IMG/VR virus record: IMGVR_UViG_3300023184_000539
Span: 1-23,154 of that record
Source: a virus
Length of the DNA stretch: 23,154 nt
Direction: 5' to 3' (one strand)
Part shown: piece by piece, positions 3,365 to 21,200 of the stretch
Layout: every line of letters begins with the position of its first letter
How positions within the stretch are numbered: position 1 is the stretch's first letter
Made by a program: the position numbers and the translations under genes
The notes under the pieces: generated by a model
The model's input: only the letters and a program-made list of their open reading frames with translations
What the model was told of the DNA's origin: nothing
Databases searched by the model: none

Positions 3365-5425
3365 ATGGCATTAAATGATAGAATAGGTAGTAAGGTAATC
3401 AAAGCCGCACGCAGAGAAGATGCGCCTGGCACACGTGTTGACCCTTATCCATACGTAGGTATAGTAAAGAACAATTTAGACCCAACCCTATCAGGACGTC
3501 TACAGGTCTATATACCTGACCTCGGCGGCCCAGCTGATGACCCAAATAACTGGCGCACGGTCAGCTATAGTAGTCCATATATGGGCTATACCAGTCAGGT
3601 GCAGACATCCACCGATAGTCCAAGTCCAGACAACGCATTTACCAAAGTAAGCCATACCTATGGTATGTGGATGGTTCCGCCAGATATTGGTGTAGAAGTC
3701 ATAGTTATCTTTATCGCGGGTGACCCTTTGCGTGGATATTTTATCGGATGTGTGAACAGTAATCTCAGCCATTTCATGTTGCCTGGTATTGCGGGCACAC
3801 AGAATGTAGATCCTAATAGCCTAACAGGAACCCAACGTCAGACATATACTCCGGGTGATATAGTGCCGGTTGTAGAATTTAACGAATACACCAAAGATTT
3901 CACTAATACATCATTCTATCTCAACAATAAACCAGCGCATACTATACAATACAATATCTTGCGTAATCAAGGCTTAGATCAAGATGTTACTCGAGGAGCT
4001 ATTTCAAGTTCAAGCCAACGCGAAAGCCCCAGCCAGGTATTTGGTATTAGCACACCAGGCAGACCATTAGATGATCCAGCGGCTACACAAGAAACTCGAG
4101 ACAAATACACATCAGATCTGGCCGCCGGCAAGATAGATCCAAAGTATCTAAAAATTAAATCTCGCAAAGGCGGCCATGTGTTTGTCATGGATGATGGCGC
4201 GGCCTTAGGCGAAGATCAACTGGTTAGATTACGTAGTGCTACAGGGCATCAGATCCTAATGCATGATACTAATAAGACTATCTATATAGCACATGCTACC
4301 GGCGGTAGTTGGATTGAGTTAGCCGCAGATGGTAGTATCAGTGCCTATGCATCTGGATCATTTAATGTGCGTAGTGAAGGCACTCTTAATCTACACAGTG
4401 ATCAAGATATAAATCTAAATGCTGGTGGCGAGATTAATATGAAATCTGGTCTACAGATCAAATTAGAAACTACAAAAACAGAATTATTGACCAGTTCTCT
4501 AAAATTTGAATCAACAGGCACTACTGAAATCAAAACAGGCGGATCATTTAATTTAGAATCTGGATCAAGTATAAGTCAGCGTGCCAGCGGAGTGTTTGCT
4601 ACAGAAGGATCTGGGATTTATCAAAACAGCGGTAGGACTGTGGGAGTAAAGAGTATAGAACCCCTACAGGTAAACTCATTACCAAATGCCGAGTATAATC
4701 CAGCCGGTGTATGGAGAATCGTTCCATCAGCGTTAGAAACCATAGTCACAGTAGCACCCACGCATGAACCATTTGCTCGAGGTGACAATGGAGTATTTTA
4801 CAAACCAACCAGTCCTGGCATACAGCCTAAACCCTATAGAGGCACAGTTGATGCTACTAAAAACACTGGGGGTGCTGGTGTGCCTAGTCCTGCTACAGCA
4901 AAAGATCTACGCAATCAACCACCTGCAGCTGAACCAGTGGGTTCTCTCAGCCAAGATCAAACCACCGCATATCTGGCACAGATGGGACAAGGCAAAGATT
5001 ACAGTAGCGTAGATGCTACCACAGGTGCAGTGGGAAAATATCAATTTGATTACAATTCATTGATCACAGGCGGATATGTTAAAAGTTCAGTTATGAGTAA
5101 CGCTGATCTATCTAATCCCAACAGTTGGATTGGCAAAAATGGCATAGACAATGTCAATACATTTCTGACCAACACTGTAGAGCAAGAATCCGCTATGTTA
5201 GAGCTAACAAAAAACAATTACACAGCTATGGTAGCTAGCGGGGCGATTAGTTCTGATCAAGCACCTGAGGATGTAGCTGGAATGCTGGCAGTAGCGCACA
5301 AACTGTCCCCTGATTTGGCCAAATCATTCAGAACGGGTAGTGGAACTGGTGCTGAATTTTTTAATCAAGGCAAATATTCTGCTTCAGTGCTGGCAGCAAA
5401 AGTCCAGGAAGTTAACCAAGGATAA
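3365..5425 (+). CDS. 5: gp5-like baseplate central spike protein
   Basis: A 686-residue gp5-family protein, the needle under the hub that pierces the outer membrane. Residues 28-145 form the gp5 OB fold (YPYVGIVKNNLDPTLSGRLQ, then VYIPDLGG). Residues 150-315 are a linker with the conserved SRKGGHVFVMDDG and RLRSATGHQILMHD stretches that lead into the spike. Residues about 316-422 carry short beta-helix repeats (SWIELAADGSISAYASGS, TLNLHSDQDINLNAGGEINM), matching the triple-stranded T4 spike. Residues about 525-686 form a lysozyme-like globular domain with VGKYQF at 556-561. In T4 the lysozyme sits between OB fold and helix; here it follows the helix and seems to lack the catalytic Glu. AAGGAAA at 3353-3359 is the ribosome binding site, and the gap to the hub gene is 14 bases. 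Confidence 0.9.
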   Translation: MALNDRIGSKVIKAARREDAPGTRVDPYPYVGIVKNNLDPTLSGRLQVYIPDLGGPADDPNNWRTVSYSSPYMGYTSQVQTSTDSPSPDNAFTKVSHTYGMWMVPPDIGVEVIVIFIAGDPLRGYFIGCVNSNLSHFMLPGIAGTQNVDPNSLTGTQRQTYTPGDIVPVVEFNEYTKDFTNTSFYLNNKPAHTIQYNILRNQGLDQDVTRGAISSSSQRESPSQVFGISTPGRPLDDPAATQETRDKYTSDLAAGKIDPKYLKIKSRKGGHVFVMDDGAALGEDQLVRLRSATGHQILMHDTNKTIYIAHATGGSWIELAADGSISAYASGSFNVRSEGTLNLHSDQDINLNAGGEINMKSGLQIKLETTKTELLTSSLKFESTGTTEIKTGGSFNLESGSSISQRASGVFATEGSGIYQNSGRTVGVKSIEPLQVNSLPNAEYNPAGVWRIVPSALETIVTVAPTHEPFARGDNGVFYKPTSPGIQPKPYRGTVDATKNTGGAGVPSPATAKDLRNQPPAAEPVGSLSQDQTTAYLAQMGQGKDYSSVDATTGAVGKYQFDYNSLITGGYVKSSVMSNADLSNPNSWIGKNGIDNVNTFLTNTVEQESAMLELTKNNYTAMVASGAISSDQAPEDVAGMLAVAHKLSPDLAKSFRTGSGTGAEFFNQGKYSASVLAAKVQEVNQG
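4322..4630 (+). repeat. Beta-helix repeat region of gp5
   Basis: Residues about 320-422 show a short alternating pattern of about eight residues per turn, with Gly or Asn at turns (SISAYASG, SFNVRSEG, TLNLHSDQ, DINLNAGG, EINMKSGL, then Thr/Glu-rich turns). In T4 gp5 such octapeptide repeats build the trimeric needle. The later turns are richer in Thr, Lys and Glu and less regular. Confidence 0.8.
4937..5422 (+). other. C-terminal lysozyme-like domain of gp5, probably inactive
   Basis: Residues 525-686 resemble the lysozyme or transglycosylase-like domain whose usual signature is ESGG-DYS, followed about 10 residues later by GKYQF. Here the first motif reads QMGQGKDYSSV (539-549) and the second VGKYQF (556-561). 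The usual Glu-Ser pair aligns with Gly541-Gln542. The rest of the fold looks intact: NPNSWIGKNGIDNVNTFL, a helix with EQESAMLE, and AGMLAVAHKLSP. I infer a domain kept for structure or glycan binding rather than cutting. Confidence 0.6.
5418..5422 (+). promoter_or_regulatory. Ribosome binding site of gp25 inside the end of gp5
   Basis: AAGGA overlaps the last gp5 codons and lies 11 bases before the ATG at 5434. Its position suggests gp25 translation is coupled to gp5. The same bases overlap a GATAAATA string, listed among the rejected items. Confidence 0.55.
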
Positions 5426-5433
5426 ATATCTGT

Positions 5434-5811
5434 ATGCCAACAGTATATAAAGGTTTTAGCACATTAGCACCCGGTAGAAATTTCCGCCTTACGGACTTTG
5501 ATCTGATCAAACAGGATATCATTAATCATTTCAACATACGCAAGGGTGAGAAACTGATGCGTCCTAACTTTGGCACTATCATCTGGAACGTCTTACACGA
5601 ACCCTTTACAGAAGATCTAAAGAGTGTAATCGCACAGGATATCAAGGCTATTGCCAGTTATGACCCACGTGTTAGCTTCGACAATATCGTTATTACAGAA
5701 TATGATCAAGGTATACAGATTGAACTGCAATTACGCTATATCACTACCAATCAAACAAATCTTATGTTGATGAATTTCAACAGTCAGACCAACACTCTAA
5801 CAGCACAGTAA
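5434..5811 (+). CDS. 25: Baseplate wedge protein gp25
   Basis: A 125-residue protein of the GPW/gp25 family, the wedge subunit that joins gp6 and the first sheath ring in contractile tails and has a counterpart (TssE) in type VI secretion. The family core is plain: LIKQDIINHF, then RKGEKLMRPNFGT at 36-48, HEPFTED, and a DPRV motif at 77-80 corresponding to the EPR-type core that sits in the interface with gp6. Length is normal for the family (T4 gp25 is 132, from memory). It starts 8 bases after the gp5 stop and precedes gp6, as in T4. The gene is complete and shows no anomaly. Confidence 0.95.
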   Translation: MPTVYKGFSTLAPGRNFRLTDFDLIKQDIINHFNIRKGEKLMRPNFGTIIWNVLHEPFTEDLKSVIAQDIKAIASYDPRVSFDNIVITEYDQGIQIELQLRYITTNQTNLMLMNFNSQTNTLTAQ

Positions 5812-5825
5812 TTAACTACACAGTT

Positions 5826-5860
5826 TATTTTCCTGATAAATACTATATAATAGGAAAATA
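5826..5860 (+). promoter_or_regulatory. Inverted repeat masking the gp6 ribosome binding site
   Basis: TATTTTCCT at 5826-5834 and AGGAAAATA at 5852-5860 are perfect 9-base inverted repeats with a 17-base loop. The 3' arm contains the Shine-Dalgarno AGGA (5852-5855) of gp6, whose ATG is at 5863. In RNA reading through from gp25 the arms can pair and hide the ribosome binding site. RNA starting inside the loop would lack the 5' arm. The stem is AT-rich with no U-run, so it is not a terminator. Confidence 0.6.
5835..5842 (+). promoter_or_regulatory. Candidate T4-type late promoter upstream of gp6
   Basis: GATAAATA matches the NATAAATA late motif reported for T4-like cyanophages and is one base from T4 TATAAATA. 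In T4 the start site is about 6-7 bases downstream of the box, which would fall near 5848-5850. That gives a leader of about 13-15 bases beginning just before the Shine-Dalgarno. It lies in the only intergenic gap longer than 14 bases in the window. No early-type -35 box is visible. Confidence 0.5.
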
Positions 5861-5862
5861 GC

Positions 5863-8800
5863 ATGGCAACAACCACAAGACAAACCAGTTTATTAGTTGC
5901 AGAAGATTGGACTAAGCTATATCAATCATTCCGTAACGCTGACTTCCAAAGCTATGACTACGAAACACTTCGTGCCAGCATGGTCAGCTATCTCCAACTA
6001 TACTATCCAGAAGATTTCAATGACTTCATCGAATCAAGTGAATTTATCGCCCTAATCGATATGGTCGCATTCTTAGGTCAGAGCTTGGCTTTCCGCGCTG
6101 ATCTAAATGCTCGCGAAAACTTCATTGACACAGCACAGCGCCGTGACAGCATACTTAAACTCGCACGCTTAATCAGCTATAATCCTAAACGCAACGTCAA
6201 CAGCCAAGGTTTCCTAAAGTTCGACAGTGTCAGCACTACAGAAAATGTATTTGACAGCAATGGCTTAAATCTTTCTGGATTAGTCATCAATTGGGCAGAT
6301 GCAGGCAACAGCAACTGGTTGGAACAGATGACTATTGTAATCAATGCTTCACTGGTTAACAATCAGGCTGTAGGTAAACCAGCATACAGCCAAATTATTA
6401 ACGGTATCACAAACGAAGAATATCAGATTAACCTTGTGCCTAATATATTATCTACCTACAGTTTTAAATCTACGGTTGCAGGCACACAAATGAGTTTTGA
6501 GATGGTTAGTCCAACCAGCAGTGGTAAAACCTACATCTACGAAGCTGACCCAAAATTAAATGCTCCATTTAATATCTTATACAAAAATGACAATTTAGGT
6601 AATGGCAGTAGTAATACCGGTTACTTCTTATATTTTAAACAAGGTGAACTTAAGAGTTTAGATTTTAATCTTGCTGAAAGTATTCCTAATCGTGTTTATA
6701 ATATCAACGCCAACAACATCAACAACGCAGACGTTTGGTTATACAGTCTTGACAGCAATGGTAATTTAGATACTCTATGGGAAAAAGTCCCAGCAGTAGC
6801 TAATACTAATGTTATCTATAATGCCACTTTAAACAAGAATATCTATCAGGTGAATACTCGTGCCGGAGACCAAATCGATTTAATCTTTGGTGACGGATCA
6901 TTTGCTAATATCCCTCAGGGCAATTATAGACTATACTATCGTGTCAGCAACGGTCTACAATATAAGATCACACCAGATGAACTGCAGGGATTAGTGATAC
7001 CTATTAATTATGTCAGTGCTAGTGGTCGTGTTGAAACTATAACTATTACAGCCAGCCTACAATATACTGTGGCTAATGCTACTACACGTGAAAGCCTTGA
7101 CAGTGTAAAACAAAAAGCACCACAGCAGTTCTACACACAGAATCGCATGGTCACGGGTGAAGACTACAATATCTTACCTTATACCTTATTCACTGATGTC
7201 TTAAAGATCAAAGCGGTCAACAGAACAAGCAGCGGTATCAGCCGTTACTTGGATGTGATCGATGTCACCGGCAAATATTCAAGCACAAACATCTTTGCAC
7301 AAGATGGTATATTATACAGAGACAATACAGTCAACACATTTAGTTTTGATTATTTCACTACCAATGACATCTATAGAGTAATATATGATAAGGTAGCACC
7401 AATTGCGCAGGCACCAGAAACCTTACAGTTTTTCTATGCGCACTATCCTTTATTAGATCTAACAGATATCTATTGGCATACCTCAACAGTGATAGCTAAC
7501 GGTTGCACTGGATATTTCCAAGACAGCCAAGGCAAGATCTTACAGATTGGATCATCGGTTACCAGCACAAACAAATATATCGTGCAGAGCAGTATAGTTA
7601 AGTTCTCAGCAGGCGCTGGCAACTATTTTGATAGCCAGAATCGCATACAAACAGGCACCCCACGCAATCCTGGCGACAAATACTATGTCTATGCCGCTAT
7701 TGAATTAGTAGTAGGAGATGGAACCAATGGAGGTCAAGGCAATTTAGCCAACGGTGATGGTCCTGTGACTATCAATCAGATTATTCCTGCTACTGAAACA
7801 GCAGAAGCTGATCGAGTATTTGCTGTGTTTAATAATGCGTTTTCAAATGCGTTAGTATCAACTATGGTAGGTTATATACAGGCCTTTGCAAACTTTGGTC
7901 TACGCTATGACGTAGATACATCAGCATGGACTATCATCGCCCCACAAGATCTTAACACCACAGATGCATTCAGTTTAAGTTATGCAGGTGATACCAGTGG
8001 TAATGCTCGTGACAGCAGTTGGATCATAGCATTCCAAACAGTGGGTAAAACCTACACAGTATCATATCGTGGATTAGATTATATTTTTGAAAGTGTGCAA
8101 GAAACAAACTTCTACTATGATGGCACTACCAAGATTTTTGATGCGTCGACAGGCCTAACAGTTAAAGATCAGATCAAAGTATTAAAGGTCAATACACAAC
8201 CAGATAATAGCAATCCATTAGCACTCGATTACATTTGGAATATCTATAAGAGTATAACAGAAGTAGATGGGTATGTAGACACTAATAGAATCTTAGTGAC
8301 TTTTAGTGATAGTGACAATGATGGCATACCAGATAATCCTGAATTGTTTGAGTTGTTGGTCAACCCAAGTGTAGATACTACTAACAAATATGTCTACTTC
8401 CAATCAACTACGGGATACGATAATTTCGTAACAGAAACTCCTGTTGATAATAACACAGTGGTATCACAATATGCGACTCTACGTGACGCACAGGTTGCGG
8501 CTACCCTTTATCAAAATGGACAATTATTCTACATCGCACCAGAAAATAAATTCTATAAGCTGTCAATCAAAGGTGCAGTGTATACGCTTAATTTAACAAC
8601 ATCAATGAGTCCTCCAGAGACTTATATTGCAAGGCTTGGCCGACAAGATGTCTACTTCCAATACAGACACAACAGTCCTAACAATCGTCGTATTGACCCT
8701 AGTCCTAATAACATTATCGACTTGTATATCTTAACGCAGCAATACAGCATTGATTATCTCGCATGGGCCCAGGATATCACTGGCACTATTACCGAACCCA

Positions 8801-9282
8801 GCTTGCCAACCAGTGAAGAGTTGGAAACAAACTACAGCACCTTAGACGACTACAAGGCTGTGAGTGATACTATCATCTATAATCCAGCACAGTTTAAACC
8901 ACTGTTTGGAGCCAAGGCGAATCCTGAACTTCAGGCACAATTTAAAGTTGTTAAGAATCCTAACGTGGTTATCAGCGACAACGAAGTGCAGACCGCAGTT
9001 ATCTCAGCGATTAACAGTTATTTTGCTGTGGAAAACTGGGACTTTGGTGAAACGTTCTACTTCAGTGAATTGGCCGCATATCTACACATGCAACTTGTGC
9101 CAAACATCAGTAGTATCGTTATAGTGCCTGCCAATGAAGCCAGCGTTTTTGGTAGCTTGATGCAGGTCAACTGTGAAATTAATGAAATTATTACCAGCTG
9201 TGCTACAGTTAATGATGTGAAAATCATCAGTGCTATCACTGCCGCACAGATTAATCAAACTGGTGCTCTTATTACTGCTTAA
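5863..9282 (+). CDS. 6: Baseplate wedge protein gp6, enlarged
   Basis: gp6 forms the heterodimeric wedge core and the iris-like ring that drives sheath contraction. The N-terminus is unmistakable: LLVAEDWTKLYQSFRNADFQ, YYPEDFNDFIESSEFIALID, FLGQSLAFRADLNARENFID, RRDSILKLARLISYNPKRN. A baseplate-J-like core follows with FGDGSF at 342-347 and YYRVSNG. The C-terminal dimerisation part, about 1032-1139, includes SDNEVQTAVISAINSYF and FGETFYFSELAAYLHM. At 1139 residues it is far longer than T4 gp6 (660, from memory). The extra mass is central and contains DSDNDGIPD (816-824), a calcium-loop pattern. Start: AGGAAAA at 5852-5858 before the ATG. Translation may be restrained by the hairpin in the leader. 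It follows gp25 as in T4 and is 11 bases from the giant gene. Confidence 0.95.
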   Translation: MATTTRQTSLLVAEDWTKLYQSFRNADFQSYDYETLRASMVSYLQLYYPEDFNDFIESSEFIALIDMVAFLGQSLAFRADLNARENFIDTAQRRDSILKLARLISYNPKRNVNSQGFLKFDSVSTTENVFDSNGLNLSGLVINWADAGNSNWLEQMTIVINASLVNNQAVGKPAYSQIINGITNEEYQINLVPNILSTYSFKSTVAGTQMSFEMVSPTSSGKTYIYEADPKLNAPFNILYKNDNLGNGSSNTGYFLYFKQGELKSLDFNLAESIPNRVYNINANNINNADVWLYSLDSNGNLDTLWEKVPAVANTNVIYNATLNKNIYQVNTRAGDQIDLIFGDGSFANIPQGNYRLYYRVSNGLQYKITPDELQGLVIPINYVSASGRVETITITASLQYTVANATTRESLDSVKQKAPQQFYTQNRMVTGEDYNILPYTLFTDVLKIKAVNRTSSGISRYLDVIDVTGKYSSTNIFAQDGILYRDNTVNTFSFDYFTTNDIYRVIYDKVAPIAQAPETLQFFYAHYPLLDLTDIYWHTSTVIANGCTGYFQDSQGKILQIGSSVTSTNKYIVQSSIVKFSAGAGNYFDSQNRIQTGTPRNPGDKYYVYAAIELVVGDGTNGGQGNLANGDGPVTINQIIPATETAEADRVFAVFNNAFSNALVSTMVGYIQAFANFGLRYDVDTSAWTIIAPQDLNTTDAFSLSYAGDTSGNARDSSWIIAFQTVGKTYTVSYRGLDYIFESVQETNFYYDGTTKIFDASTGLTVKDQIKVLKVNTQPDNSNPLALDYIWNIYKSITEVDGYVDTNRILVTFSDSDNDGIPDNPELFELLVNPSVDTTNKYVYFQSTTGYDNFVTETPVDNNTVVSQYATLRDAQVAATLYQNGQLFYIAPENKFYKLSIKGAVYTLNLTTSMSPPETYIARLGRQDVYFQYRHNSPNNRRIDPSPNNIIDLYILTQQYSIDYLAWAQDITGTITEPSLPTSEELETNYSTLDDYKAVSDTIIYNPAQFKPLFGAKANPELQAQFKVVKNPNVVISDNEVQTAVISAINSYFAVENWDFGETFYFSELAAYLHMQLVPNISSIVIVPANEASVFGSLMQVNCEINEIITSCATVNDVKIISAITAAQINQTGALITA
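8308..8334 (+). other. Calcium-binding-type loop in the central part of gp6
   Basis: Residues 816-824 read D-S-D-N-D-G-I-P-D, fitting the DxDxDGxxD spacing of EF-hand-like and thrombospondin type 3 calcium loops. It lies in the central expansion that T4 gp6 lacks. Metal binding is inferred from spacing alone. Confidence 0.5.
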
Positions 9283-9293: not shown

Positions 9294-12200
9294 ATGGCTG
9301 AAAGAAAAACCTATAATTTTTTACCTACTACCTTTAGATCTGACACGAATCAGAAATTCCTGTCAGCTACAATGGATCAGTTGGTATCAGATCCTAACTT
9401 TACTACCTTATATGGTTATATAGGTCGCAGATTTGCACCTACCTATAAGAGCACAGACAGCTATGTATTAGAGTCTACCGCTGAACGTCAAAACTATCAG
9501 TTAGAACCCAGTATAGTAATCAAGAACACACAGCAGAATACCACATTCTTTGCTACCTATACTGATCTATTAGATAAGATCAGCTACTATGGAGGTATAG
9601 TTACAGATCATAGTCGCTTGTTTGAACAAGAATACTATACATTCGATCCTAAGATCAGCTTTGACAAGTTTGTTAACTTCAGCCAATACTATTGGTTACC
9701 TAACGGACCTGCTCCAGTAGAAGTCAGCACCACAGGATTAGATCTTGACATTACCTATACAGTAACACGTGATCCGGCCAATGGACGTTATGTGTTTACC
9801 AACAACGGTGTAGTAGACAACAGTATTATCTTAGCCAGAGGTGGTGTCTATAGATTCATAGTAGATCAACCCGGATATCCTTTCTGGATACAAACTGAGT
9901 TAGGTGTAGATGGTGTAATTTCAGCAACACCAACACTAAGCTCACGAACTGTATTAGGTGTAGACAATAACGGTGCTGAAACTGGAACTGTCACATTTAA
10001 TGTGCCAGCACAGTCAGCACAAGATAGATTTATCGCTATGCAGACGGTATTCAATGTAGATTATGCGACCCCATTCAATACCTTACCATATAATAGATTA
10101 CATAATCAACTGCTATCATCATTCTTGGATGATTATCCTCAATATGGGGGAATCACAGGTCAACTCAACGGCAAGCATTTGGTATTCGTTAATGTCCAAC
10201 AATCAACAAACTATGGCGAGGAAGTGTGGACAGATCCTAATGTAGTTATTGCAACTTCTTCAGCTACCGGCGGTAATGTAGGAACCAACACCCTCACTGT
10301 TGATTCTGGATTTAATGTATTAGCTAATTTAGTAGTCACAGGCACAGGTATCCCAGCTGGGACCACTGTGGTAAACATTAGCGGTGCTAATGTAGTAACC
10401 TTAAGTGCTAATCTCACAGCTAATGCTACAGGCACATATTCATTTATCGACAGTAGTTTCAATGCAGGCTATGTGGTTCCGGAAGCAGATAGATACGATG
10501 TATGGCGTGTGGTGTATGTTGACGCCGGTGCTAAAAATGCAGATGGATCTGTAGATCCTGTGATCAGACTGATCCATCAACAAGACATACAGGTTGATGA
10601 GAAAGTCTATGTTAAGTATGGACTTGGCAATGCCAACAAAGAATACTATAAAGACTACGATGGATTCCTAAAACAGGTTCCATTACTAAGCAGCCAACTC
10701 AATGAACTTTGGATACAAGATGGTGTCCGTAGTAATATCTATACAAATGTAAAAATTGTAGAATATAATGCGTGGACTATCAACGTTCCAACAGATATCT
10801 TAGGACAATTAAATTATACCAGCCCTAACGGAGTAGAATTTACCTCAGGGTTAAAAGTTCAGTTTGGTGATGATGTAGAACCCGCATACTATCAAAATCG
10901 TCAGTTCTATGTAGAACAAGTAGGTGATACCAGCCAGTATAATGGTGGCATTAGATTAGTGCCAGTTGATGAGTTGATCACTCCAGAAGCCTATAACGAT
11001 GAGTTGGCGTTAAACTATCCTACACAGACATTCCCTGATTATATAACTATCAATCGTGCCAGCATAGATCGCAACGCATGGTCACGCAATAATCGTTGGT
11101 TCCACATCGATGTATTATTAGCCACTGCAACATATAATTCTACAACACCGGTATTTGATCAGGCCAGTCGAGGTCAGAGACCAATCGTGCAATTTGATTG
11201 TGACTATCAATTGGTTAACGAAGGTCGTATTGGTCTTGCACCAATTGATGTCTTAGATACTGATACTACTAATGCCTTTACAGAATTACAAGGCAAAACC
11301 TATGCTACAGCATTTGGAGTTACTTTATTTGATGGCATGCGAGTAATCTTTGCTGTAGATAACGATCCATTAGTTCGTAATAAGATCTATGTATTGAATT
11401 TAGTCCAGTATGAAGTAGATGATCAAGGATTACCTACAGGTGATAAACATATTGAATTAACTCTGGCAGAAGACGGAGATGTCAGCGCATACGCAACAGT
11501 TGTAGTCAAACTTGGCAAATACAAGGGTGATCCTTGGTGGTTTGACGGGGTGAATTGGAACGCCAGCCAAAGAAAGACAGCATTACAGCAACCACCACTA
11601 TTTGATGTCTTGGATCCTACAGGTAAAAGTTTTTCTACTTACACCAGAAGCACATTCACGGGCACTCAGTTATTTGGCTATGTCAGAGCTACCTCAGGAG
11701 TAGCAGACAGCGTATTAAGCCAAGGCATTATTCCTACGATCTATGACAGTAATAATAATCCTGTTACAGATTTTTATCTAAGTTATAAAAATTTCCAAGC
11801 CCAAGGCGATATAAATTTCCAAAACTATTTCAGCACTGATACATTCAGCTATGTAGATGCCACAGACACTATCGTAACCGTGCCAATCAGTCTGGGATAC
11901 CTACAGAAAATAATCACCGCCGAGGTATTGCAACCTCGAAATACTTGGTTGACCGTTCCTGAGCATAGTAAACAGTATCAACAGATTAGTTATATATTTG
12001 ATGGCACTAACAATCCATTCAAGATAGATGTCACACCAGCTGTTCCTTCTACTATACCTTATACTAAAGTTTTCCAGAACTTCCAGTATCTACAACCAAC
12101 ACAGTGGACATTGGCCAACAGTGCTGTGACACTATCAACAACATTAACAGTTGGTGATCAGATTGACATCTTAGTTTACAGTCCAGAGATTAGTAAACTT

Positions 12201-15200
12201 GGCTTTTATCAAGTGCCACAAAACTTAGACTTAAATGCACAGAATACAGATATCAATACACTAACATTAGGACAATTACGTAATCACCTAATAGCTTTAG
12301 GACAGAACAGCACGATCCTTGATGGCAATATCTTAGGACAAAGTAACTTACGTGACATTGATATCAAACAACAGGGCGGTACGATCCTACAACACAGTAG
12401 TCCTACTCCCTACGCTAGTTTGTTCTTGGTAGACAAGACAGCAAACTTTATCAACAGTCTACGTTTTGCACAGCAAGAATATACTAAATTTAAGAATAAG
12501 TTCTTAGAACTCAGCACCAGCCTAACAGGTATTGATCCTACTGATCCTATTGCCAGCGTTGATTTAATCCTATCTAAGATTAACTCAGTTAAGAATAAAA
12601 CATTCCCATGGTATTATTCTGACATGGTGCCGTATGGTCCGCTGAAAAATATCGTAAGCCAACAGTCAGGTGTAGATGGTTTCTTAGTATTTGATCCATT
12701 GAAGACCAATTATGAAATTACAAATATATTCAATGATCAAGAACTCAGCAATCAGGCTGTGTTGGTATATCGTAATGGTGTGCAATTAGTCAATGGTGTT
12801 GATTATACATTCAGCACGACTACTCCATCTATAGATTTCCAAATTGGTCTCGATGTTGATGATGTGATTAAGATCGTTGAATATAGTAATACCGACGGTA
12901 ACTACATTCCAGAGACTCCTACAAAATTAGGTCTATGGCCAAAGTATGTGCCTAAGATATTCTTAGACGACACCTATAGAACGCCAACTAATGTTATACA
13001 GGGACACGATGGTAGCATCACACCGGCGTTTAATGACTTCCGTGACGATTTCCTATTAGAATTAGAGAAACGCATCTATAATAATATTAAATTGTCACTG
13101 ATCGGAACGTTTGGTGACATATTTACAGTAGTTCCTGGCAAGTTCCGTAGTAGTGATTATGCTATAGGTGATATTAATCAATTGATATCTATCTATTTCT
13201 TAAATTGGATTGGCAACAACAAGTTAGATTTTTCAACTAACGATACGTTTGATCCTAATGATCCATTCACATGGAATTATGCAAACAGCACTGATGTGAT
13301 AGATGGTGAATCACTGCAAGGCTCATGGCGTGCTTGTTATCAATATTTCTATGATACATTCCGCCCACATATCATGCCATGGGAAATGTTAGGATTCGCT
13401 GCGCAACCAACTTGGTGGGAAGATTTCTATGGCCCAGCACCTTATACCGGTGGTAACAAACTCTTATGGGATGACTTAGAAGCAGGATATATTCGTTATG
13501 GTGAGCGCCAAGGTATAGATACTAATTATGCTCGTCCTGGGTTGAGTCAGGTCATTCCTGTAGATGAAAATGGTAACTTGCTGGCGCCTAATCAGATCCT
13601 TACAAGATCATTTAACAGTAAACGTGCGGCCAGTGCTTGGTCAATTGGCCAATATGGTCCTACAGAATTTGCATGGAGATTAAGTAGCGAATTCCCGTAT
13701 GCTGTTCAGCAGGCTTTAGCCCTAAGTAAACCAGCGAAATATTTTGGTTCACTGATCGATACCTACAATTACAGTTACATCAATCTATTATATACCATAG
13801 ACGAAGATGCCGCTGGTAACGTTATAGGATCAGAACAGTATCTCACACGTTCAACAAATCATCATATTACACAAGATGTGATTGACTTTAACGGTGACAC
13901 TACTTCAGGGACTGTGTATAGAGGTGCTGGCTATATCAACTGGATCGCTGATTACTTGATCAATCAAGGTATAAATCCAGCAACATATATACTTCCATTG
14001 TTGAAGAAATATCAGGTTAATTTAGCCTACAAGGCCGCTGGATTCACAGATCAAAAATATCTACAGATCTTAGCTGAGCAGGTAAGCCCGACCAGCACTA
14101 ACGATAGTATCCTTATACCAAACGAAAATTACAGCATTTTCCTAAATGAAAATCCTATACCTATTGACAAACTGATCTACAGTGCAGTTATAGTAGAAAA
14201 AACCAACAATGGATGGACTGTGCGTGGGTATGATTTATTTAATAGTTTCTTTACTATTATTCCGAGCGTGGTAAACAGTAACGCTTATAAGATCACAGTA
14301 TTGAATAGCAGTGCTACGGTATTTAATGATTATCAAAACCTAAAACTAAACATACCATACGGATATGAATTTACCACACAACAACAGGTAGCAGATTTCT
14401 TAGTCAGTTACGAACGTTTCCTAATCGCACAAGGTTGGACATTTACCAACATGGATCCACAGCTTAATGAGATGCGTAACTGGAAACTGTCAGTAAAAGA
14501 ATTCTTGTATTGGGCACAACAAGGTTGGCGATCAGGTAGCATTTTAGTCCTAAGTCCGGTGGCTGAAACCATTAATGCTGTCACAGTTGGTGCAATAACC
14601 GCAGGCATAGAAGACAGCCAATATAGCAGTAAAGTATTAGACCAAAACTTTAATTTAGTAAAGAATAATAATTATAATGTCTTAAGAACACCTGATATGT
14701 TTAAGCTGAGCCTATCAGATTCTGCGTCTGTGATCGCGTATGTTGAAGTAGATCTTGTGCAATATGAACACGCACTGATATTTGACAACACTACGGTATT
14801 CAATGATGTTATCTATCAGCCAGAAAGCGGCAATCGCCAATATCGTCTGAAACTAATTGGTCAAAAAACAGGTGCCTGGGATGGTAGCCTTACCGCTCCA
14901 GGGTTTGTATATTACTCAGGACAGGTCAATGATTGGCGCCAAGGACAAGATTATCTCAAAGGCGACTTGGTCAAATATAAGAGCCAATACTATACTGCTC
15001 TGCAAGATGTAGTAGCAGCCAACACATTTGAATTCCGATACTGGCAACAGATTGATCAAACGCAGATCCAAGAAGGTCTACTGTCTAACTTCTCAACCTT
15101 AGCAGTGCAGAGCCAAGGCTACTACGATTCTTATGCAACTATCAAAGATCAAAATCAATTAGCATACAGCCATGCATTAATTGGGTTTAAACCTCGCCAA

Positions 15201-18200
15201 TATCTCAGCGATCTTGGTGTTACAGAAACCACCCAGATAGAATTTTATAAAGGATTTATCGCACAGAAAGGCACTGCTAATGCTGTAAATCAGATGTTAA
15301 AAGCAACATTTAATAACCTATCAAGCGATATCAACTTCTATGAAGAATGGGCGATGCGTGTAGGTGAGTATGGTGCATTAGACACTAATCCTTTTGTAGA
15401 AATTCCACTGAACGAAAGTGCATTTGGTGTAAATCCGAGTGTTGCACAATTCGTAGGTGAAGCAAATAATAATATAGCTGATGGTATAAACATATTCAAT
15501 AAATCGCAACTGTATAAATCATATGGTACCTATACTGGTAATATTGCACTTAATCGCACTGCATCCAGTGACTATGATAATGATATTCCAACAGCAGGAT
15601 ATGTTAATATTGATGACGTAGATACTACAATTTATGATCTTGCTAACTATGTTGATCTTGATGGCAAGATCGCAGACATGGGCAGTGGATATCTTATTTG
15701 GTGCGCTAAAGATTTTAGTCAAGACTGGAATGTTTATCGCGTAACGGAAACCAATAACTTTGTTGTTGAAGTGGCAAACGCACTAAACAGTCGCGTGACA
15801 TTTACCACACAGAAACCACACAAATTTGTCGTTGGTAGCGTGTTCCTTGTTAAAGATTTCATTGATGGATTTAATGGGTTCTATCAGGTCTACAAAGTTG
15901 TTAGCCAAACCAGCGTGATGGTTGACTATGTGGGAGATCCTGCTAACTTATCAAATCTAACTACAGAACAAGGGCAGGGTATATTGTTCCGCATGGATAG
16001 CATGCGATTCCAGTTTATGGAAAATAGCCGCGTGTATGGTTTACTGAACCCACCTAACGGTTGGAAAGTAGGTGATAAGATCTGGATTGATGATGATGCA
16101 GAAACTACTCCAGTCCAAGGACAACCATATAGTCCAAGTAATACTTGGAAGGTATATGAAAAACAAGCACCATGGACTGTAAATCAACAGCTGACAAAAA
16201 ATGCCAGTGAATATGCAACCAATGACGGATACGGAACATCTGTTAAGATGTCCAGTGATCAGCTGATCGTAGTAGCTGGTAGCCCAAATGCCAATGGCAA
16301 TGTAGGCATTGTAAATACATTCTTAAAAGACTACGCCGGAGTATTCCAAGAAAGTTTCAGTATCAGTCCACTTGGTGCAAACACCCGTGCATTTGGTCAT
16401 GCAGTTGATCTTGGCACAGACTCTGCATCAAACAGCGTGTTAGCGGTAGGTGCTCCTGCCAGCTACGGTAATATTGGTTATGTTTATGTTTACAACAAGT
16501 CAGAGTTCGCTACAGCTTTTGATCGCACCCAAGTATTAGTTGGTAATGTATTTTCTCAAGGCCAATTTGGTTATAGTCTGGCATTCAGCCAAACAGGTGA
16601 TTGGCTGTATGTGGGTGCTCCTGGCAACGCTGCGATATCCACAGGTAATGTCCATGTTTATGGGCTAAACAAATTTATACCAACACATGAACAAATTAGT
16701 TCAGTTAACAGTTTATATACATTAACACTAAGTTCAGCGTTAGGAACCACTGCCAATGTTGGTGACATCATCACACAGGCAGTTACAGGTGCTACTGCAC
16801 GAATTACCTATGTTGAAAGCGCCAGCTCATATCAGGTTGACAATCTAATTAATTTTGTCTATGCCGCAAATGTTACTGTTGGCAATGCAAATGTATCAGC
16901 TAAATTAAGTATTACCACTGCTGGATTCTTGTCAAACGTAGATGCATACCCGCTGAATTCAAATACCTATGCAGTAACCAGTAATATAACTATTACGCAA
17001 TTTACTCCTACAGTAGCTAATGACCCGAGCGCATTATTAATCACTACTGGTAGCAAGACATTTATTCCAAATGTAGATTATTATTTAAATGGATCAACGG
17101 TATATTTTATTGAAAATGCAAATATCGCTGCTCCACAAAAACTTGACACATCTACAGTAAGTATCAAGCAAAGACCATACTATCAACTGTTAACAACACT
17201 TACACTACCGTTGAGTAACATCGGTGCACAGTTTGGATATGCATTATCAAGTAGCTTTGATGGTGCACAGTTAGCAGTAGGCACACCTAACGATAATATC
17301 GTCGGTGCTGATGGCAATCTCAAGATTGGTGCAGGCTCTGTTTACGTATATGACCGCGTTATTGAAGCATTTAATACAGTAGTTGATGCAGTGCCAGGAA
17401 CCGGTGGACAAGATTACATCACACAAAACGCTATCGCATCAGTTTACAAAGTGACACTTGATAATGTCGAAGTTAATGATTATGTTATAGTCAACAGCAA
17501 CAGAATACGTTTCATTACACCTCCGCCAATTGGTCGTGTATTATACATCGAAACTAACCATTTTGCACTGTTAGAAAGATTGATTGGTGTAGATAGCCTA
17601 ACTGGAAGCCTAACAGCTATCCAAAGCAACGCGGCCTTTGGCACCAGTTTGACGATCTGTTCAAACAACTGTGCGATCTACGTAGGTGCTCCTGGATACG
17701 ATAACGGTACACAATATAATAGTGGTGCTGTATGGAAATTCCACAACAGAGGTCGACTATACGGAACCAATACTGGCTATACAGTAAATCCTGTGTTCAT
17801 GCCAGGGGATACATTCCGCTTAGACAACTTTGAGATCACAGTAACGGGTCGTTGGATGCCAACCACAGGCGGCAATATTCTAACATTAAGCAGTAACGTT
17901 CGTGCCAATGTTGGTGACTACATCACACAGACCGTGAATGGTAGCAACATAGCAAACGTTACAGTGGTCACATCAACTCCTGCCGCAGGCAGTAAGTTTA
18001 TCACTGTAGGTGATTACAATAATGCCAATGTGTTTAGTTGGTCGTCTGGCAATGTCGTCAGTGTTAACGGAACCGCAACAACAGCACAACTAAGAGCCAG
18101 CTTAGATAGTCTTGTTAAAGATGTCAATGATGCTAACCTATTAGGTATTACAGCTACTAATGATGCAGGACGATTGAGATTTGACTCAGATAGCACTGTA

Positions 18201-21200
18201 GCTAAAAATCTCTTGCGTATCCTATCAGGTAATAATCAGGCAGGTAGTCCTGGTGTGTATACGAACGCTGATCTGATCATATTCGCGTTCATGCAGATCA
18301 TCGTAAACCCATTTGGCCTACCTGGTGAATATTTTGGTAACAAGGTAAAACTTGCATCAAACGCTTACATGCTGGTCATTGGCAGTGCCCGAGGAACTAC
18401 TAAAGACTTTACTACATTTGACGTGACCACAACACCAAATGGCACGACTCTTGATAAATCTACTACAAGATTATATGACAGCATACAAGGCAGTGGTAGC
18501 GTTTATATCTACGAATTGTATGATGATCCACGTAACGATGTTGAAGATCCAGGACGTTATGCCTATGCACAACAGCTAAATCCAGATGACTTAGTACCGG
18601 GTTCACAATTTGGCTACAGCTTAGATATTGAAGGAACTTATATCACTGTTAGTGCTCCTGCTGCGACCTACGGAGATAGTCCAGAACGTTCTGGAACTGT
18701 TTATATATTCCAAAATCCTACTATGACACGTGGTTGGAAATTGATACGCTATCAACAACCTACGGTAGATATTGACAGTCTGACCAGAGCTTATCTATAC
18801 GACAGTGTAAGTAGTTTGATCAAATATGATCTACAGTTTATTGATCCTGCTAAAGGTCGTATCTTAGGACAAGCAGAGCAAGAAATATCATTCAAGACAG
18901 AATATGATCCTGCGATCTATAATCGTGGCTCTAATCCCAAAGCAGATATCAATCAAAATGTCTACTGGGGAGATCTACAGGTAGGTAAGGTATGGTGGAA
19001 TCTAAGCACAGTCAGATACATTGACTATGAACAAGATACCTTGACTTATCGCAGCCTATATTGGGGAACCTTATTCCCAGGATCTACTATTGAGGTATTG
19101 GAATGGGTCAAGAGCAACTACTTACCAAGCCAATATGTGGCCAATGGCGGTGATGGTGTGCCTAAATATGCAGACGACAGTGCATACGTAGAAGAGATTT
19201 TCGTTGATCCTGTGACCAGCATCATTACCACACGCTATTACTATTGGGTCAAAGATAAGACCACTGTGGATCCTAACGATTCAGCAAGAAATATTCCTAT
19301 CAGTGCAGTGCAAGACTATATCCTAAATCCAAAAAATCAAGACATTGGTTTTGCGGCCATGATACGCAATGATGCTATAGCGTTCTACAACGTAAGCGAA
19401 TACTTGTCAGCTGACAACACTATCATGCACTTAGATCATCAGTTGACAATTAATACTGATATCATACACAGCGAATATGAGTTAGTGCAGAAAGGTAATC
19501 CAGATAATCCGATTCCTGCTAAGATAGTCAACAAATTAATAGACAGCCTTAGTGGACTTGACAATGCAGGAAGAACTGTTCCAGATCCAACACTCAGCAC
19601 AGCAGATCGCTACGGCATCAGCATACGCCCAAGACAAAGCATGTTCGTTAATCGACTACGTGCGGTTGATGAGATGGTGGCTTTTGTAAACAAAGTATTA
19701 GCTGTGAATCCTATCACTGAACAGTTTGATCTAACAGGACTAAATGCAGAAGATCCACAACCTAACTTTAAACTTGGTGAATACGATCAGGCTGTGACTA
19801 CAGAAGCTGAACTTTACTATATAGATACAGAAGTATTAGATCCTGGATATCTCGTATTAGTCACCAATGATACCACACAAAATGGACTTTGGGTGTTGTA
19901 TGAACTCGCCGCAGACAAAACTTGGTCTATAAACAAAGTGCAAGCCTACAAGACTAATCAATACTGGACCTACATAGACTGGTATGCTACTGGTTACAGT
20001 GCGGCAACCAAACCAGATTTCAGCGTAGAGACTACCAACGACGCACTGAAATTACAAGCCACAGCAGGCATAGTCGTTTATATCAGCAACGCCACAGGTG
20101 CAGGCACATGGCAATTAGTCGTAGTCCAAGAAGATGGAAGCCTACAGGCAGTTGGTATACAGAACGGAACTATACAATTAGCCACTTCGCTCGGTGATTT
20201 TGCAGGCAACGGTCTTGGCTTTGGTAATCAGGACTTTGACAGCAATAGATTTGATCAAAATCCCAACAACGAAATACGTGCCATAGTGCAGAGCCTAAAT
20301 GATACTATATTCACTAATACCTTAGAAGGTGAATTCAACAACATGTTCTTTATCTTAGTTAACTATCTGTTAACTGAACAAAAATATGTTGATTGGTTAT
20401 TTAAATCAAGTTTCATCAGCGTAGTGCATAAACTAAGATCTCTAAGTCAATTTCCAAGCTATGTGGTAGATAATCAGACCTACTATCAAAATTATATTGA
20501 AGAAGTCAAACCATACAGAACCAAGATCCGTGAATATAAGATTGACTATACTGGTGATGATACGTATGAAGGCAGCATCACAGACTTTGATCTTCCAGCA
20601 TATTATGACACTACAACTGGTTATGGTATATTCCGTAGTCCGAGCGGCGAAAGTCCTTATGTTGACGAAGATGAAGCTACATGGCAGACATATCCATACA
20701 ATCAATGGTACGCAAATAGAAATCTCGTAGTATCAAGTGTCCTAATAGAAGCCGCAGGTGCTAACTATCAGACCCCGCCAACTGTGACAATAACCAGTGC
20801 AGACGGTAACGGAAGCGGCGCCACAGCCGTAGCTACAATAGATGGTAACACCGGAGTGATAACTGCTATCACATTAACCAACAGTGGTAGTGGATATACA
20901 ACTACACCTATAGTAACTATCAACGGCAGTGCAACTACACAGGCTAATGCCTACGCTGTAATGAAGAGTCCTTATGCTCGTAGTTTTGATACCAAGATGA
21001 AATTTGACCGTATCAGTTATGATACTGTGGTCACACGCTGGGCTAGCAATACATCATATACCGCAGGTCAGATCGTTAGCTATGCGTTCCCTAACGGTAA
21101 TGTGATGATACGTAAGGCCTATACTGTTAATGCTGATATAACTACAGGTAGTAGTTTTATTCCAACAGATTATACTGAATACACAGCTAATCTCTTTAAT

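Follow-up and report, generated by a model that had tools for sequence, protein, structure and literature searches.

How can a gene be translated when its ribosome binding site is predicted to pair within a hairpin, and why should a late promoter lie in the loop of that same hairpin? Both questions are posed by the short gap between two baseplate genes, gp25 and gp6, in the virus considered here. The window, by which we mean the whole stretch of DNA analysed, is a virus record of its own of 23,154 bases. Its baseplate genes are of the type found in T4-like jumbo phages and comprise a gp53-like gene (a weak match, just below the Pfam cut-off) and those for a tail lysozyme protein, a base V/OB protein, gp25 and gp6, the genes around the last two being structural and on the same strand. 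The matches of gp6 in tblastn searches are wedge proteins of RaK2, PA5oct, 121Q, CBB, Atu_ph07 and others, at 32-40% identity. Of 9 relative contigs, 8 encode a homologue of the gp55-type late sigma factor, the window itself being a 23-kb fragment, and a published analysis of CBB likewise infers an ATAAATA late motif (PMC5259590).

The arrangement of the gap, summarized in Table 1, points to an answer. A gp55-type late promoter would be enclosed by a hairpin in which the ribosome binding site of gp6 is concealed. On a transcript that enters from upstream both arms would be present and would fold, so that gp6 would be poorly translated from it; RNA started at the promoter itself, near 5848, would lack the 5' arm and present an open AGGA on a 15-nucleotide leader, from which gp6 could be translated. 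Synthesis of gp6 would thus depend on its own late promoter and be shielded from transcripts arriving from upstream, early ones as much as late ones. We consider it likely that the hairpin, with its internal promoter, makes gp6 depend in this way on its own promoter firing. What computation establishes is the anatomy, the conservation of the box, the pairing, conserved and co-varying among members of the window's clade, and a difference in predicted accessibility; where the late RNA starts, how strong the repression is and what the phage gains are predictions.

Table 1. Features of the gp25-gp6 region of the window
Feature	Position	Strand	Basis or remark
Late-promoter box GATAAATA of gp25	5421-5428	+	gp25 ATG (5434) falls exactly at the predicted +1
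gp25 baseplate wedge protein, upstream gene	5434-5811	+	Pfam GPW_gp25, E 2.8e-10
5' arm TATTTTCCT	5826-5834	+	5' of the predicted late start, hence on read-through RNA only; paired in relatives
Late-promoter box GATAAATA in hairpin loop	5835-5842	+	T4-type; putatively gp55-dependent
Predicted late +1	5848	+	Box at -13 to -6, leader of 15 nt; from T4 geometry (PMC1524935)
3' arm AGGAAAATA, including Shine-Dalgarno AGGA (5852-5855)	5852-5860	+	
gp6-like baseplate wedge protein, 1139 aa, regulated gene	5863-9282	+	tblastn to annotated baseplate wedge proteins

The initial annotation had described perfect 9-base arms, a 17-base loop (5835-5851) containing the late box and a 3' arm containing the Shine-Dalgarno sequence of gp6, and each of these elements was found where it had been placed. 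The whole is accommodated in a gap of 51 bases between the gp25 stop and the gp6 ATG, with AGGA 7 bases 5' of the latter. With the box at -13 to -6, its location in T4 (PMC1524935), the predicted late RNA excludes the 5' arm, which ends at 5834. Folding of the isolated stem yields -6.7 kcal/mol (z -2.3) and of the 5812-5870 RNA, the fold that had been proposed as a check, -9.1 kcal/mol (z -2.2); in a context of 111 nucleotides the hairpin is not unusual (z -0.9). A ribosome terminating on gp25 would probably leave the stem closed, because some 15 bases separate the gp25 stop from the 5' arm. The hairpin was also considered as an intrinsic terminator, a reading discarded as no GC-rich stem followed by a T-run occurs in 5000-6200 of the window. 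An origin of the arms in two back-to-back ribosome binding sites was likewise rejected, since gp25 is on the same strand and no opposed, minus-strand TAAATA, the mark of a divergent late-promoter pair, occurs in 5826-5860. Rfam covariance models gave no match to 5400-6000 up to an E value of 1.

Taken singly, the sequence is weak evidence. Perfect 9-base stems with loops of 3-30 bases occur three times in the window (at two loci), compared with 3.8 +/- 2.9 expected from first-order Markov sequences. The earlier estimate that such a repeat would arise by chance 'once or so' in 23 kb was therefore slightly low, with about four expected and three found. The 9-base repeat alone is accordingly not significant, and single-sequence significance was abandoned as proof. 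Judging from the stem count, a given 51-base gap would hold such a stem in about 0.3% of cases. The case rests instead on placement and on conservation in relatives.

A first scan of IMG/VR provided 80 loci whose gaps measure 43-59 bases and without exception contain the box or a one-base variant, and three further scans of gp25 relatives brought the total to 90 distinct gp25-gp6 gaps. The TAAATA core is present in all 90 that were read; the lone row without a box in the gap listing is a chance match within another gene. Most members of the window's clade have a masked gp6 start, and where the letters of one arm differ those of the other differ to match. Thus the stem is kept with changed letters as TTTTCCAA/TTGGAAAA in L036, TTTACCT/AGGTAAA in L068, TCCATTA/TAATGGA in L053, CCGTTTT/AAAACGG in L067 and CCCT/AGGG in L022. 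An alignment-free test in which arms were swapped among 39 divergent representatives gave a mean score of 7.44 for a gap's own arms versus 6.11 +/- 0.23 for swapped arms, a difference equalled in 0 of 50,000 permutations; for the first 21 representatives the values were 8.57 and 6.89 (0 of 20,000). In a fixed-register alignment, class B, in which TTCCT lies three bases further from the box, showed covariation of 0.247 versus 0.099 (0 of 500 shuffles). Class A, the commonest, did not exceed its shuffles by the same measure (136 of 500), because little variation is left in its core and the register shifts in some members.

Compensatory changes in the arms, which the initial annotation had suggested looking for, are therefore present in the window's clade. 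It had also named retention of the box with loss of the arms as an outcome adverse to the switch; this is what is seen in distant clades (L080, L213, L214, L244, L274 and others), where the box is kept and the stem is weak or absent, while pairing is preserved in the clade of the window. Only some members of the family therefore have the hairpin. Could the 5' arm be a promoter element? This was excluded by the rarity of its motif elsewhere: a 5' TTCC within 14 bases of the box is found at 11 of 15 gp6 promoters, compared with 3 of 111 other leadered and 0 of 42 leaderless late promoters.

Accessibility of the gp6 initiation region was expressed as the predicted cost of opening -15 to +3. For the window this amounts to 8.0 kcal/mol on read-through RNA, 0.9 on the late RNA and 3.6 when the 5' segment is shuffled; at 15-25 C, nearer to aquatic conditions, the figures are 10-12 for read-through and 0.2-0.5 for late RNA. 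The means over 50 distinct gaps are 9.4, 2.2 and 5.8 kcal/mol, respectively, and in most of these gaps the real 5' segment costs more than its shuffled versions. The median effect of the real 5' segment in 102 other leadered late genes was nil (-0.1). T4 genes, assigned by their N termini and positions, served as controls with the same script, the cost falling from read-through to late RNA from 15.6 to 1.9 for e, 15.6 to 3.3 for 49, 14.3 to 5.0 for I-TevI and 8.8 to 6.3 for soc. In a T4 benchmark using the same kind of score, gene e ranked first with 13; the window scored 11.

Stems of this kind are not confined to gp6. At 100 other leadered sites a stem score of 12 or more was reached in 4, versus 0.4 with swapped upstream segments. 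Only a subset thus exceeds the swapped controls, and the idea that the hairpin is a general property of late promoters was dropped. The loop of a stem that masks the ribosome binding site also houses the late promoter of a tail-fibre-like gene whose product begins MAISRxPG (L173-L202). The 5' arm is placed differently from phage to phage, such that different 5' segments pair with that site, and the design also occurs at G006 34477 (minus), G011 50569 (plus) and G001 326727 (plus). An arm-swap test of this gene alone gave 814 of 20,000, which, from 11 sequences, is no more than suggestive. On the minus strand of G006 (L124), at about 19261-19310, an 18-base-pair stem, AAATTATCCTGTTGTTGA/TTGACAACAGGATAATTT with one G-U pair, surrounds a late box 5' of the gene for a 305-residue protein and is far stronger than the gp6 stem. 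In T4 itself, a stem CCTCGTA/TACGAGG encloses the late box at 45636 (minus), the opening cost falling from 13.1 to 0.3 kcal/mol; it precedes a protein starting MKWKLRKSLKIA, which we take to be possibly I-TevII. Back-to-back late promoters with mutually complementary ribosome binding sites occur at G004 22584/22609, G009 4475/4503 and T4 116455/116456, an arrangement in which both read-through RNAs would be masked.

Might the pairing at gp6 nevertheless be a by-product, in which a low-complexity Shine-Dalgarno sequence meets a pyrimidine stretch with no regulatory consequence? Chance alone would put about four stems of this kind into 23 kb, and class A covariation does not rise above shuffles, much as such a reading would have it. 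It is already disfavoured by the swap test (0 of 50,000), by class B (0 of 500), by opening costs that exceed those of shuffled 5' segments in most of the 50 gaps and by the occurrence of the same design at a second gene, and we regard it as very improbable. The palindrome might instead act in DNA, as a protein operator or a cruciform around the late promoter, with RNA pairing incidental. Covariation alone cannot tell pairing in RNA from pairing in DNA, and the excess of G-U over A-C in a gap's own arms (16:3) is accompanied by one in swapped arms (531:183, or 2.9:1). The letters of the arms, however, vary widely and their register slips relative to the box, yet the Shine-Dalgarno sequence stays paired, as would be expected of masking more than of a fixed operator, and the 5' motif is absent from the other late promoters of the same phages. 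The odds of a purely DNA-level element appear to us to be very low.

A closer rival shares the masking hairpin and differs in what it is for. The initial annotation had proposed that gp6 uses the switch of T4 gene e, a strict matter of timing in which the hairpin blocks the gene on early read-through RNA in particular and expression follows late. The anatomy is that of T4 e, soc, 49 and I-TevI (PMC3014915), a late sigma homologue is present in relatives, and the core of the proposal holds, with the promoter in the loop, the Shine-Dalgarno sequence in the 3' arm, a predicted late RNA without the 5' arm and compensatory pairing. Its early component fares less well. The window offers no sign of an early promoter, the upstream promoter evidence consisting of the late-type box of gp25 at 5421; the neighbouring genes are structural and on the same strand; early synthesis of a late wedge protein carries no obvious cost, unlike that of lysozyme; and several cultured relatives have a terminator in the same gap. 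We therefore consider strict early/late timing unlikely. RNA from the gp25 box, about 400 bases 5' of the gp6 promoter, would carry the hairpin and be late; the read-through RNA is probably late. That gp6 is insulated from upstream RNA of any kind explains the arrangement at least as well as an early/late switch does, and we favour this reading because gp25 has its own late promoter and because of those terminators.

The design itself has precedents in T4, where late-promoter hairpins have been described for e, in which repression is 100-fold, and for soc, 49 and I-TevI (PMC3014915). Gene e and gp6 share a stem in which the Shine-Dalgarno sequence is sequestered and whose 5' strand, where the late promoter lies, is missing from the late RNA; similar structures occur in related phages. 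The differences are that gp6 encodes a baseplate wedge protein in a jumbo phage lineage and not a lysis or homing function, that its stem is rich in A-U and weaker (8.3 versus 15.6 kcal/mol to open), and that it belongs to a widespread family with turnover of arms whose read-through RNA is probably late. The gp6 hairpin is thus the switch known from T4, newly found at a structural gene, with its repression and start site predicted. The classic switch is thereby extended to jumbo phages that have not been cultivated, an extension backed by comparison of dozens of relatives. A structured initiation region is also found at a baseplate gene of T4-type phage in the split ribosome binding site of T4 gene 25 (PMC3014915); that stem, however, lies between the Shine-Dalgarno sequence and the AUG and raises translation, whereas the gp6 stem pairs the Shine-Dalgarno sequence itself. 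CBB, PHA46, XaC1 and RaK2 have the same junction and the same TAAATA box 5' of gp6, presumably also serving to separate gp6 from upstream RNA. Unlike the window, they carry an element resembling an intrinsic terminator (GC stem plus T-run) 5' of the promoter; CBB, PHA46 and RaK2 have no comparable stem over the Shine-Dalgarno sequence, whereas XaC1 folds one as well. Hairpin and terminator may thus be two alternative ways of separating gp6 from upstream RNA. In PA5oct, Atu_ph07, SCTP-2 and Phosso the gap is only 6-16 bases long and lacks a promoter.

A second signature concerns the late promoter of gp25. Among 298 ATAAATA sites on 15 contigs, 42 have an ATG that coincides with the predicted +1, 11 bases beyond the first T of TAAATA, compared with 2-4 sites at each neighbouring spacing; in G001 the real box gave 19 such sites and permuted hexamers 0-7. 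The ATG of gp25 takes this position in 68 of 76 loci, with ATAAGTA at the same place in four more, and the signature is seen in the window at 5421-5434 and in G001-G014 (loci L086-L150). This class of site was not seen in T4, CBB or RaK2, and we found no report of leaderless late mRNAs in T4-like phages in the open-access literature. The spacing suggests that gp25 and about 40 other genes may have leaderless late mRNAs. Together with the hairpins, it raises the tentative possibility that, in this lineage, translation of a late gene is coupled to the 5' end that its own promoter generates, through leaderless mRNAs in the case of gp25 and the other 40 or so and through ribosome binding sites masked on longer RNA in that of gp6, the tail-fibre-like gene and a few others. 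If this is true, much of the late programme would not be translated from read-through RNA. Beyond gp6, a single open frame of 4497 residues occupies 9294-22787 of the window, and a similarly giant virion structural gene is found there in relatives.
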